From: Acidobacteriota bacterium
GTDB taxonomy: Bacteria; Acidobacteriota; Terriglobia; Terriglobales; Acidobacteriaceae
Assembly (NCBI GenBank): GCA_003225175.1
Contig: QIBA01000064.1
Location: 1 to 64,000 of the forward strand
DNA: 64,000 nt
Direction of reading: 5' to 3'
A model generated the notes under the pieces. The model was not told where the DNA came from, did not search any database, and was given only the letters and a program-made list of their open reading frames with translations. Positions within the stretch are counted from its first letter, which is position 1, and each line of letters opens with the position of its first letter. Below, in pieces: positions 19,905 through 31,420 of this stretch. Position numbers and translations under genes: made by a program.

Positions 19905-20243
19905 CTATTCTGAAAATGTCATGATCGGCCTGACTTCAATCGAGCCGAAACGCGCCCCCGGAATCTTGGCTGCTATCTGCGTAGCCTGGTTGATGTCCTT
20001 TGCCTCAATCAGATAGAAGCCGCCTAACTGCTCTTTAGTTTCGGCGAATGGTCCATCAGTGTTCGCAGTTTTGCCGTTTCGCACGCGAACCGTCTTGGCC
20101 GTGTTCGTCGGCTGCAGAGCATTGCCACCTTTTATGTTCTTGCCGAACTCCTTGCCGAATGCCTGATACTCGTTGATTTCAGCCTTGTCATAGCCATGAC
20201 TGAAGCGCTTTTCGTTTTCATAAATCAGCAGCAGATATTGCAC
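19905..20243 (-). CDS. YCII-related (DGPF) domain protein
   Basis: 112 residues from the GTG at 20243, the expected family start (VQYLLLIYENEK) with GGAGG ten bases upstream; the longer frame is rejected. The signature TDGPFAETKEQLGGFYLIEA and closing GSIEVRPIM identify the YCII/DGPF fold, a small ferredoxin-like dimer often encoded next to ECF sigma factors. Its start lies inside the end of the sigma-like gene (26-base overlap), so the two are translationally coupled. Biochemical role unknown. Confidence 0.88.
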   Translation of the reverse strand: MQYLLLIYENEKRFSHGYDKAEINEYQAFGKEFGKNIKGGNALQPTNTAKTVRVRNGKTANTDGPFAETKEQLGGFYLIEAKDINQATQIAAKIPGARFGSIEVRPIMTFSE

Positions 20244-20796
20244 GGACTGGTTTCCTCCCATAAAGCATTTGAATTGAGCCATCAAGATCCCCGAGATGCT
20301 TCAGCGCCTGAGTTCGCGCTGCCATGATTCCCGACCGCGACCGGTTCAGCAGAACGGCACATTCATGGTCTGAATAGCCCTCCAGCAGTGACATGACGAA
20401 TACAAAGCGCTCCAGCGCATCGAGTCGAATGACTGCCGCAAGCGGACTGTCCGCAATGAAATTCCAGTCACCGTTTGTGGGCGGAGTGGAAGCTTGCAGT
20501 TCCGCTCCACCTGGAGAAAAGACGGTGCGGATCGCGTTCGTGATGATCGCCCGGCGGCTCCAGGCGTACGCCCAATCCTTGAATACTGGATTTCCCTTGA
20601 TGCAATCGTCCAGCCCTGCGACGAAGCATCGCTCTGCCAGCCCGGCCTCCGCGGTCAGAAGCAGCGATAGCGCGTACAATCCGCGCATATCATCTTTAAA
20701 TAGCCGACAAAAATCGGTCTCGGTTGTATAGGCGGCGACAGCTTCGGTCCAACCTCTGGTCCTATCTAAGTTATGCACTTCTCCCACCCATCCCAT
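20218..20796 (-). CDS. Divergent ECF sigma-like protein
   Basis: 192 residues from the ATG at 20796, with GAGGAAG upstream; earlier in-frame codons are rejected. The C-terminal part (about 145-175) reads as a sigma region 4 helix-turn-helix: ERFVFVMSLLEGYSDHECAV then LLNRSRSGIMAARTQAL. The N-terminal part aligns only loosely with region 2 (LYALSLLLTAEAGLAERCFV), lacks the usual acidic EDLVQE core-binding pattern, and has WSRRAIITNAI in place of the typical region 2.4. It may be a sigma factor with altered core binding or a sigma-derived regulator. It overlaps the YCII gene, the partner normally seen with ECF42-type sigma factors. Confidence 0.7.
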   Translation of the reverse strand: MGWVGEVHNLDRTRGWTEAVAAYTTETDFCRLFKDDMRGLYALSLLLTAEAGLAERCFVAGLDDCIKGNPVFKDWAYAWSRRAIITNAIRTVFSPGGAELQASTPPTNGDWNFIADSPLAAVIRLDALERFVFVMSLLEGYSDHECAVLLNRSRSGIMAARTQALKHLGDLDGSIQMLYGRKPVRAISAADL

Positions 20797-21214
20797 TTTC
20801 AGATCTTCCTCTCCCAAACTGCAGTCCGTTATCAGTACAACGTTCGGCACAGGGCAAAATCGACGTGGCGTTGAATGACGAAAGCAGCTTTTTTCTCGAC
20901 CCACGTTATATCGAACATATCGAACCTAACTTGGATTGTGATCCGGTCCAATAGATTCAGACTTAACTGAAGCTTGATTGCTCCTAAACGCATAACGCTC
21001 GCGGTTTCAGAAGCTTGACTGACAAGCTTGCTGGAAAAAAGTTGTAGGTAACCGAGTGCTGGGCGTTCTTGCCGAGGCTATGGGAGGCTCAGGCAGTTTC
21101 GTAAGGCTGGGCGGGGCGCCCGGGCGCGCCGTTTTAAGACTTTTGTGGTATTCAATGATTGAGTCCGAGCTTCGACGCTTAGACGTTGCAGCTACACACC
21201 CGGAGGAATGGAGC
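20797..21214. other. Intergenic region between divergent sigma-like and YCII genes
   Basis: 418 bases. Contains the 9-bp tandem repeat at 20908-20925 and the ribosome site GGAGGA (21202-21207) of the YCII gene at 21215. GC-rich GGGGCGCCCGGGCGCGCC lies near 21113. No gene supported. Confidence 0.5.
20908..20925. repeat. Perfect 9-bp tandem repeat
   Basis: ATATCGAAC repeated twice without a gap, about 112 bases upstream of the sigma-like gene. Possible regulator half-sites, since 9 bp is close to one helical turn. Confidence 0.5.
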
Positions 21215-29283: not shown

Positions 29284-30732
29284 CTAAGTCTCTACATCTT
29301 TGATGTGTGTGGCGACGTACCACTGATTCCCAAAAGCGTCCTTCACTCCTCCGCTACGATCGCCATAAGGATGGTCGGTCGGCTCGGCGATTGATGTTGC
29401 TCCTGCAGCGAGGGCGCGGTGATATAGTGCGTCGCAATCTGGAACGTACAGATAGAACATGCCCGGCATCGGTTGATAGATTCCGTGCGCTTCCCCCATC
29501 TCCAGATGCGAGCTGCCAACCTTCATCTTCACGTGATGAATCACCCCATCTGGCGTGCCATAGCGGCCGAGTTCCTCAGCGCTGAAGGCGCGCTTCAAGA
29601 AATCAATCACGGGCAGCGCGCGTACCGGGTGTAGATAAGGTTGAACGTCGGGCGCTCCTTCCCACTTGTAGTTCTCACCTTTATACGTGGCGATGTACCA
29701 GAAATTCCCTGCCGGATCTTTCACACCTCCGGAACGTTCACCATACGGCTGATCTACCGGCTCCGCGATCGACGTGCCCCCGGCTTCGAGCGCTCGTTTG
29801 TAGGTCGCATCGCAGTCGGGAACATACATGTGGAAGGCCATCGGGCTCGACTCGCCGCGCCAGGATAGTCCGGGACCACCGCCACCCATCATCAGCATGG
29901 AATCGCCAATGCGGATCTCTGCATGGATTCCACCGGCAGGGCCGATGGCGCGGAATCGCTCTTCAGCTCCAAAGGCGCGCTTAACGAATTCGATCAGCGC
30001 GTCCGCATTCTGCGCGACCGGATAGGGCGTAACCGTTCGATACCCTTTTGGGACAGGGTCGACCTTCGGCTTCTTCGGTTGCTCGCTTTGCATGGCCCGG
30101 AAACGGCGATGCATCTCCTCGACCGACATGTGCTCTTTTATCGTCGAGACGCCCCACAGATATCCGAACGGGTCGCGCAGAGTGCCTTGCCGGTATCCGT
30201 AGAACTGATCTTGCACGGGACGAACAACAATTGCGCCTTCAGCGACCGCGTGCTCCACAAAAGCGTCCACATCGGGAACGCTCAACTCGATGCTGATCGG
30301 CGTATTGCCAAGCGTCTCCGCGCTGAAACGGCCGCCTTCCGGCCATTCTTCGCCCAGCATGATGGTCGAATCACCGATCGCGAGCTCCGCGTGCCCGATG
30401 CCGCCTTCGTTCTCAAAACGCATGATCTCCTTCGCACCGAAGGCTCTCTTGTAGAACTCGATTGCGAGACCGGCCTTCTTAAACCTCAATGCCGGTGCGG
30501 CATGTGTGCGAATTGCGGCTAGTGGTTCTGCTTTAGCTGCCATAGAAGTGCTCCTTTCCAAATTGGATCTGAGTCGTTCAACAAATTCCTCGCGTGGCAT
30601 ATCGCGCAACTCACCCGCGAGACGTACTAGCTGCGCGATTTGAGCATCCGCTCGTCCCGGCAAAGCATCCGCGCGAGACAACAATTTGCCGATTGCCTGA
30701 TCGAGCAGCTCGTAGCGCGAGAGCTTAGCCAT
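29284..30732 (-). CDS. Triple VOC (glyoxalase-like) domain protein with sigma-associated N-terminus
   Basis: 482 residues from the ATG at 30732, overlapping the sigma-factor stop by 8 bases. An N-terminal helical segment of about 60 residues (YELLDQAIGKLLSRADALPG, then LAGELRDMPREEFVERLRSN) looks like a sigma-interacting or adaptor helix. Three VOC units follow (about 78-205, 235-350 and 360-475), each with a PhnB-like AIEFYKRAFGA/LIEFVKRAFGA/VIDFLKRAFSA start and an end such as KDPAGNFWYIAT. Metal-ligand Glu/His are partly retained (GHAELAIGD, HAEIRIGD, HHVKMKVGS). VOC proteins include dioxygenases and resistance proteins; the substrate is unknown. Confidence 0.85.
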   Translation of the reverse strand: MAKLSRYELLDQAIGKLLSRADALPGRADAQIAQLVRLAGELRDMPREEFVERLRSNLERSTSMAAKAEPLAAIRTHAAPALRFKKAGLAIEFYKRAFGAKEIMRFENEGGIGHAELAIGDSTIMLGEEWPEGGRFSAETLGNTPISIELSVPDVDAFVEHAVAEGAIVVRPVQDQFYGYRQGTLRDPFGYLWGVSTIKEHMSVEEMHRRFRAMQSEQPKKPKVDPVPKGYRTVTPYPVAQNADALIEFVKRAFGAEERFRAIGPAGGIHAEIRIGDSMLMMGGGGPGLSWRGESSPMAFHMYVPDCDATYKRALEAGGTSIAEPVDQPYGERSGGVKDPAGNFWYIATYKGENYKWEGAPDVQPYLHPVRALPVIDFLKRAFSAEELGRYGTPDGVIHHVKMKVGSSHLEMGEAHGIYQPMPGMFYLYVPDCDALYHRALAAGATSIAEPTDHPYGDRSGGVKDAFGNQWYVATHIKDVET

Positions 30733-31261
30733 TGGCGCCCTCCACGCTGGCACGAAGCTTTTCCAGAGCGCGGAACTGAAGTTGCTTCACGGCTCCTTCA
30801 CTCCGCCGGAGTTCCTGCGCAATTTCCCGAATGCTCTTCTCCTCAACAAAGCGCAACACCACAACCCGGCGCTGGTCCTCGGGAAGACGCTTCACCAGTT
30901 GGAAAAGAGCGGCGCGCTGCTCAATCTCTTCCATGCGAATGTCTTTCGGATCGTCGCTAATGGGGTTCCCAGTCTCACGCGATGTTTTCCGCCAGCGATC
31001 GATCATGCGATGTGCCGCGATGCGAATCAGCCATGCAGCAAACGGAGCTCCACGCCACTCGAACTTTCTTAAGTTCTCCAGCGCGTGGTGAAAAACATCC
31101 GAAGTAATGTCTTCCGCCTCTTCCCGCGTGCCGACGCGCCGCGAAACATACGCATACACCTGATACACGTAGCGCTGATAGAGCTCCCCAAAGCGCGCAG
31201 GATCGCGCTTGGCCGCCTCGATCAGAAGCCGCTCGTCTGCGTCGTTCGTCAGGGCCTTCAA
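30725..31261 (-). CDS. ECF-type RNA polymerase sigma factor
   Basis: 178 residues from a TTG with GGAG upstream. Region 2 is canonical (FGELYQRYVYQVYAYVSRRV, EEAEDITSDVFHHALENL, FAAWLIRIAAHRMIDRWRK), then an acidic linker and region 4 (LPEDQRRVVVLRFVEEKSIR then EIAQELRRSEGAVKQLQFRA). It should direct RNA polymerase to a specific promoter set. There is no anti-sigma factor gene next to it; instead the triple-VOC gene starts inside its last codons, so that protein may regulate or serve as its output. Confidence 0.95.
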   Translation of the reverse strand: MKALTNDADERLLIEAAKRDPARFGELYQRYVYQVYAYVSRRVGTREEAEDITSDVFHHALENLRKFEWRGAPFAAWLIRIAAHRMIDRWRKTSRETGNPISDDPKDIRMEEIEQRAALFQLVKRLPEDQRRVVVLRFVEEKSIREIAQELRRSEGAVKQLQFRALEKLRASVEGANG

Positions 31262-31420
31262 CCGGCACTCCGCATGTCGCGCTCACAAAGATAAACGGAC
31301 GGGGAAGCAAAAAGGTTACGGGGTAAAAATTAGGGTACAGGGGACAGGGTAAGAGTCTACGGATACGAAGTTACCAGTCCACGAAGATGCCGGTAGTGCT
31401 TCGCCTATAATTTTGCGGCA

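Follow-up and report, generated by a model that had tools for sequence, protein, structure and literature searches.

In a soil acidobacterium, the gene for an ECF sigma factor runs by 8 nt into a gene for a protein in which a small N-terminal helical head precedes three VOC domains. Judged by sequence comparison, sigma and head are a conserved unit, beyond what chance would produce, because the pair, its overlap and an upstream site recur in many genera. The reading that we favor, with a confidence somewhat above even, makes the VOC protein itself the anti-sigma factor: soluble, gated by a ligand and encoded in an operon that regulates itself. If this is true, a sigma-gating VOC protein would link the binding of a chemical directly to transcription. 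The pair is found repeatedly across the Acidobacteriota, a group described as difficult to grow in culture and well supplied with ECF sigmas (PMC3174227). Since a predicted promoter accompanies the pair, sensor, regulator and readout could be movable together into a laboratory strain. A full-text literature search, whose reach did not include the published ECF classification, returned no paper in which the title or the start of the abstract describes the sigma/head-VOC pair, and it is possible that this sigma clade already carries an ECF group number or a context note.

The sigma/VOC operon

The window, that is, the whole stretch of DNA that was analyzed, is 64,000 nucleotides long. Its sigma gene occupies 30725-31261 of the minus strand and encodes 178 aa from a TTG start at 31261, with a GGAG upstream that is, by eye, a possible ribosome-binding site. 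The product is an ECF sigma factor with sigma2 and sigma4 and without sigma3: Sigma70_r2 (PF04542, E 3.3e-17) and Sigma70_r4_2 (PF08281, E 1e-14) both score above their cut-offs, and a region-3 family is absent among its Pfam matches. The nearest solved chain is BldN (6dxo_A, E 1.4e-23), ten orders of magnitude ahead of the runner-up (E 1.4e-13). The BldN family model of NCBIfam, TIGR02952, is likewise the best for this sigma, yet the match stays below the cut-off (122.5 vs 206.45 bits).

The VOC gene follows on the same strand (29284-30732, 482 aa, ATG at 30732). The stretch shared by the sigma stop and the VOC start (ATGGCTAA, 30725-30732, minus strand) is 8 nt long, exactly as the original prediction had it. 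The genes to the left are of electron-transfer-flavoprotein type and convergent, and the one to the right is amidase-like and divergent (ORF reading, with names given by eye), so the operon seems to consist of two genes, sigma and VOC. No separate anti-sigma gene was seen on reading the neighboring ORFs. The earlier statement that no anti-sigma gene is present nevertheless probably misses the point, since the best candidate for an anti-sigma domain is the N-terminal head of the VOC protein.

A parallel drawn at the outset with a sigma/YCII pair elsewhere in the window is loose, as the protein encoded at 20218-20904 has just a sub-threshold match to Sigma70_r4_2 (24.0 bits, cut-off 25.7). There, within 19905-20904 of the minus strand, a YCII-domain gene overlaps this 228-aa ORF, which may be a degenerate or very divergent sigma.

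Architecture of the VOC protein

The tail of the 482-aa protein belongs to the VOC superfamily, whose modules are of beta-alpha-beta-beta-beta type. PF00903 (Glyoxalase/VOC) covers three stretches of the protein (E 1.2e-30), and an AlphaFold2 model of the full length, built on a 56-row alignment of the window protein with 55 other VOC-type frames, has a mean pLDDT of 90 and three confident VOC folds. These lie at residues ~77-203 (30124-30504), ~229-356 (29665-30048) and ~357-482 (29287-29664), all on the minus strand, and confirm the three VOC domains in one chain that had been read from the sequence. By sequence, the nearest solved chains are TioX (3itw_A, E 3.1e-9, matched in the first domain) and then Rv0577 (E 1.5e-5); a Foldseek search with the VOC model ranked glyoxalase I first and TioX at positions 7 and 9. 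VOC proteins are known as enzymes and as drug-binding resistance proteins, and the enzymes carry metal ligands at the strand ends, the last of which is usually a glutamate. When the alignment was read by eye, this glutamate did not show where each of the three domains closes with G-x-x-W, which would favor binding over catalysis in the VOC tail.

The head comprises residues 1-64 (30541-30732, minus strand) and is a candidate anti-sigma domain with three predicted helices and no match to a Pfam family. In the full-length model the helices span residues 6-19, 33-44 and 48-63 (block pLDDT 62-82) and are followed by a low-confidence stretch at residues 61-70. Modeled alone, the head forms three similar helices with low confidence (pLDDT 62, pTM 0.30). 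Its conserved residues include F50, L54 and L58. The helical N-terminus of about 60 residues that had been proposed for this protein is thus borne out at the level of prediction.

Linkage of sigma and head across genomes

The first sweep covered 61 genomes (the bacterium's own and those of 60 relatives) and contigs of named genomes. Of the first 47 loci, 13 carry the head (11 once duplicate contigs are counted a single time) and each of these has the sigma upstream, and none of the 34 loci without the head has this sigma in its flanks. Tail relatives such as L042 and L043 have neither the head nor this sigma nearby. In all, 84 distinct head proteins were collected, and 82 of them have a sigma gene upstream on the same strand. 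The overlap is exactly 8 nt in 67 of the 84, as in the window, and 4 nt in three; in 11 others the sigma lies 7-167 nt upstream, being in two pieces at L082 and L118, and in one (L101) it is frameshifted. A few of these gap sizes depend on the choice of start. The two head proteins that lack a sigma are L070, at a contig edge, and L048, from genome G011, a protein whose head is missing its first half as well.

Counts by genome give the same picture. In the class, a profile search found the head in 74 of 399 genomes and the sigma (E<=1e-40) also in 74; both are present in 70, vs 13.7 expected (Fisher 8e-68, with genomes treated as independent though they are related). The search for the pair in other genomes that had been suggested as a check therefore came out in favor of the coupling, both by protein (82 of 84) and by genome (70 of 399). 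The four genomes with sigma only are G140, G324, G338 and G312. In the first three the sigma is overlapped by a VOC gene whose head is shortened, and the profile recognizes the helix-3 part of this head in G140 (21.6 bits) and G324 (13.0 bits) and not in G338; in G312, 67 bases separate the sigma from the end of its contig. The four with head only are G011, G096, G199 and G361. In G096 just the end of a sigma, with the 8-nt overlap kept, precedes the contig edge, while G199 and G361 have a disrupted sigma reading frame. G011 (L048/L184) retains the VOC protein at 62% identity but has lost the front half of its head, and no sigma is present in the flanks examined; this genome looks like a natural loss of the sigma/head pair. 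A scan of 396 genomes of the phylum found the head in eight, six of them outside the class, and the sigma lies directly upstream in all six of these.

VOC genes unlinked to sigma genes, which the original prediction named as evidence that would count against it, do occur among head-less VOC proteins and, in G011, as one protein with a damaged head; they do not occur among the intact head proteins. Sigma and head distances correlate at 0.68 over 72 of the 84 pairs, a value expected from co-inheritance alone. A natural sigma-head fusion was sought in the ORFs and none was found, the apparent case at L101 being the frameshifted sigma. Two loci (L036:1498-2661 and L038:57-1319) show a second association of VOC with ECF: a single-domain VOC gene that lacks the head stands directly before, rather than after, the gene for another ECF sigma, which is weakly similar (47-49 bits).

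The head on two kinds of effector

The head is found on two kinds of protein. By a local profile, 46 of the 84 head proteins have two VOC domains, 25 have three, four have four, one has one and eight have none. Two proteins of the two-VOC type (L137:1498-2949 and L018:1153-2493) have, by eye, one more VOC-like stretch of different relationship at their C-terminus. One of the eight VOC-less cases is a frame of 85 codons (L093), and the other seven (of 84) form a TonB type, in which one hydrophobic segment and then a glycine-rich stretch come after the head. TonB_C stands at the end of all four TonB-type proteins scanned in Pfam; two more look alike by eye, and the one at L118 is cut short. A 19-residue window with a mean hydropathy of at least 1.6 is present in all seven TonB-type proteins and in none of the 77 VOC-type proteins, so the latter carry no membrane anchor of the RsbN type by this measure. 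Six TonB-type operons have sigmas that group as a single clade (support 0.978) in a midpoint-rooted tree of the same 72 pairs, from which the seventh sigma was omitted as broken. The genome of the window itself has a second sigma-head operon, of the TonB type, on contig C66 (L146:7555-9235, plus strand; L097/L141).

Membrane anti-sigma factors usually combine a head in the cytosol, a single membrane segment and a domain in the periplasm. By this analogy, the TonB type points to the head as the sigma-binding part. The coupling of the VOC protein to the sigma is strongly supported by the near-exclusive co-occurrence, the kept overlap, the presence of the head when the sigma adjoins and the occurrence of the same head on a second effector.

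A promoter-like site upstream of sigma

A site of the form CGTAACCTT-N15-GTTTA begins 59 nt upstream of the sigma start (31292-31320, minus strand; in full, CGTAACCTTTTTGCTTCCCCGTCCGTTTA) and is a putative autoregulatory promoter. It resembles the BldN promoter consensus, CGTAAC-N16-CGTTGA. Word pairs of the CGTAAC...GTT kind are the most enriched in the upstream regions. The pattern CGTAAC-N15-18-NGTT, which was drawn from the same loci on which it was tested, occurs upstream of sigma in 49 of the 79 loci (out of 84) that entered the test. Markov controls gave a mean of 0.135 and a maximum of 1, the reverse strand gave 0, and 250-nt slices inside ORFs gave 0 of 84. The -35-like half, CGTAAC[CT]TT, is found alone in 59 of the 79.

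In the 64 kb, the site at 31292-31320 is the only match to CGTAAC-N15-18-NGTT. In the genome, CGTAACYTN14-17GTTTA matches this site alone, vs three matches for the reversed control, so the rarity of the site proves nothing by itself. Over three genome-wide scans with different patterns the matches compare with the reversed ones as 1 vs 3, 3 vs 3 and 4 vs 2, the forward form being not commoner in two of the three. The form that admits the site of the sister operon (CGTAACCTTT, at C66:23520) has four matches: both sigma operons, one near a P450-like gene and one on a foreign-looking contig. As the pattern matches in both sigma operons, each sigma probably drives its own operon, with room left for a broader sigma regulon. 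Contig C136 (L149) contains lysine-rich, repetitive ORFs and has, by eye, the look of a eukaryotic contaminant.

Relation of the head to known anti-sigma domains

The BldN partner RsbN defines the class III anti-sigma domains, which are described as placing two of their three helices, the first and second, on sigma4 and the third on sigma2 (PMC7406223, PMC8103513). Comparison of the head with known families was made on an alignment of 76 of the 84 distinct proteins; L048 (truncated), L123, L124 and L126 (inserts in the head), L128 (a stop or unclear codon) and L057, L101 and L107 (other start codons or near-copies) were left out. Searched against Pfam, ten families match one of the 76 heads each, the best at E 0.0099. 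Matches in NCBIfam are marginal, with an anti-sigma model hit by two of the 76 (best E 0.014). The head profile matched no RsbN chain among solved structures. With the low-confidence head model, Foldseek returned one match, of no use at E 9.3, and VIA-align returned four chains, none with Z 2. Profile searches of the PDB with the head gave chance-like matches, such as one to Vpu, which fell from E 0.0055 with an 11-row alignment to 1.1 with the 76-row alignment.

Plasmids were searched by tblastn with both proteins. The sigma gave 18 records, all below 60% identity, of which eight regions were inspected and a Nonomuraea sigma was compared with BldN; the VOC protein gave 78 records, 15 of them listed. 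The annotated partners of the plasmid sigma matches differ (e.g., RsdA, Lsr2 and hypothetical proteins). The Nonomuraea sigma is a BldN (6dxo_A, E 1.1e-55), and the gene that starts 59 nt downstream of it, with a hydrophobic segment recognized by eye, served as the comparison target. This gene is RsbN by position only, since a search of the solved structures with it, taken as far as E 10, retrieved no RsbN chain. The head profile placed its product first of 87 comparison proteins, with a score of 11.0 bits, the next being at 6.3; the match is weak and mostly to one helix. In a shuffle control, one shuffle in 2000 equaled or exceeded the real score (real sequence 13.1 bits over 70 residues; that shuffle 18.3). 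With hhalign, the head and the Nonomuraea gene align over 18 columns at helix 3, with a probability of 51% in local and 7% in global mode. The similarity thus spans ~20 residues at 9-13 bits, which lets the head be called RsbN-like, short of a proven member of the RsbN family.

How the VOC protein might act

As a soluble anti-sigma factor, the VOC protein would work as follows. Its three-helix head would bind the co-translated sigma and keep it from RNA polymerase, in the manner of RsbN (class III). The VOC domains would be the sensor for a small molecule; by analogy with VOC proteins that sequester drugs, this ligand may be a toxicant of aromatic or peptide-like nature. Ligand binding would change the protein and release the sigma, which would then transcribe its own operon from the CGTAACCTTT...GTTTA promoter and yield more sigma and more VOC protein. 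The extra VOC protein would soak up the ligand and then recapture the sigma.

An alternative that we regard as unlikely is that the VOC protein is simply the output: the sigma, itself controlled by its expression or otherwise, would turn on its own operon and thereby supply a VOC detoxifier, much as ECF41 sigmas drive one adjacent enzyme gene, and the head would be a docking or assembly domain. For ECF41, a neighboring enzyme gene is described as the only detected target in two organisms, with no obvious anti-sigma gene reported in that source (PMC3426412). The promoter patterns in the window's own genome, which match the sigma operons and little else, fit such an arrangement, as does the resemblance of the tail to TioX, which captures thiocoraline (PMC4052310). 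So does G011, where the VOC protein is retained without the sigma and with a damaged head, so that the VOC part has its own role there. However, this reading leaves unexplained why a small head should be nearly confined to the neighborhood of this sigma and be shared by two unrelated effectors; it is also compatible with the anti-sigma reading, should one protein serve as sensor and as effector.

The linkage and the overlap would suit an activator as well as an inhibitor, and the sign of regulation is not given by any of the results. The head might then be a sigma activator or chaperone, with the VOC ligand turning the sigma on by promoting binding. We consider this quite improbable, as the position of the head right after the sigma, together with the one hydrophobic segment in the sister type, is the usual anti-sigma layout (PMC8103513), and the RsbN-type similarity of the head, weak as it is, speaks against an activator. 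Inhibition rather than activation is what we infer. That the two genes are plain operon neighbors, linked by co-transfer, with the head an unrelated feature of the VOC family, is very hard to credit: the patchy spread (74 of 399 genomes) would befit a transferred cassette, but VOC relatives without this sigma also lack the head, the TonB_C type bears the same head behind a related sigma, and the overlap length is kept in 67 of 84.

The anti-sigma reading can be extended to both effectors, although here we are tentative and would stop short of an even chance. One RsbN-like head may have been plugged either onto tandem VOC domains, as a cytoplasmic chemical sensor, or onto a membrane helix with TonB, facing the periplasm; together they would make a new modular class of sigma control in the Acidobacteriota, in which the VOC protein is brake, sensor and ligand sponge at once.

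Comparison with known systems

Four known systems bear on these proposals. The ECF41 sigmas with their COE genes are similar in having a promoter in their own neighborhood, a very narrow regulon and, as described, no classical anti-sigma gene (PMC3426412). However, ECF41 sigmas have a large C-terminal extension, whereas the sigma of the window is a bare sigma2-sigma4 protein of 178 aa that ends after region 4. TioX and the VOC proteins of bleomycin-resistance type are similar to the tail, TioX being its nearest solved VOC chain by sequence (E 3.1e-9). Unlike the three-VOC protein of the window, TioX is a single VOC domain in a chain of 137 residues, and we know of no sigma link for it.

Among soluble anti-sigma factors found, ChrR, which pairs with RpoE in Rhodobacter sphaeroides, appears to be the nearest functional parallel. 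It is described as having an N-terminal sigma-binding ZAS head and a C-terminal cupin-like sensor (PMC8999054), and thus shares with the VOC protein the order of an N-terminal head and a C-terminal sensor-type domain on a soluble protein. The ChrR head binds zinc and its sensor is a cupin, whereas the head of the window has a VOC tail. The zinc anti-sigma (ZAS) motif is made of zinc ligands of the HxxxCxxC type, and the head of the window protein has no Cys and no His.

BldN and RsbN of Streptomyces share more features with the pair. BldN is the nearest solved sigma, the head has three predicted helices and is encoded at an N-terminus just after the sigma, and its helix 3 shows the weak similarity (LP..F+.RL+..L) to the gene beside a Nonomuraea BldN. 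The head profile matches no RsbN in the solved-structure set. RsbN is membrane-anchored (PMC8103513), whereas the head of the window carries soluble VOC domains and that of the sister type carries TonB_C. If the relation to RsbN holds, class III anti-sigma domains would also occur on soluble proteins, and also outside the actinobacteria.
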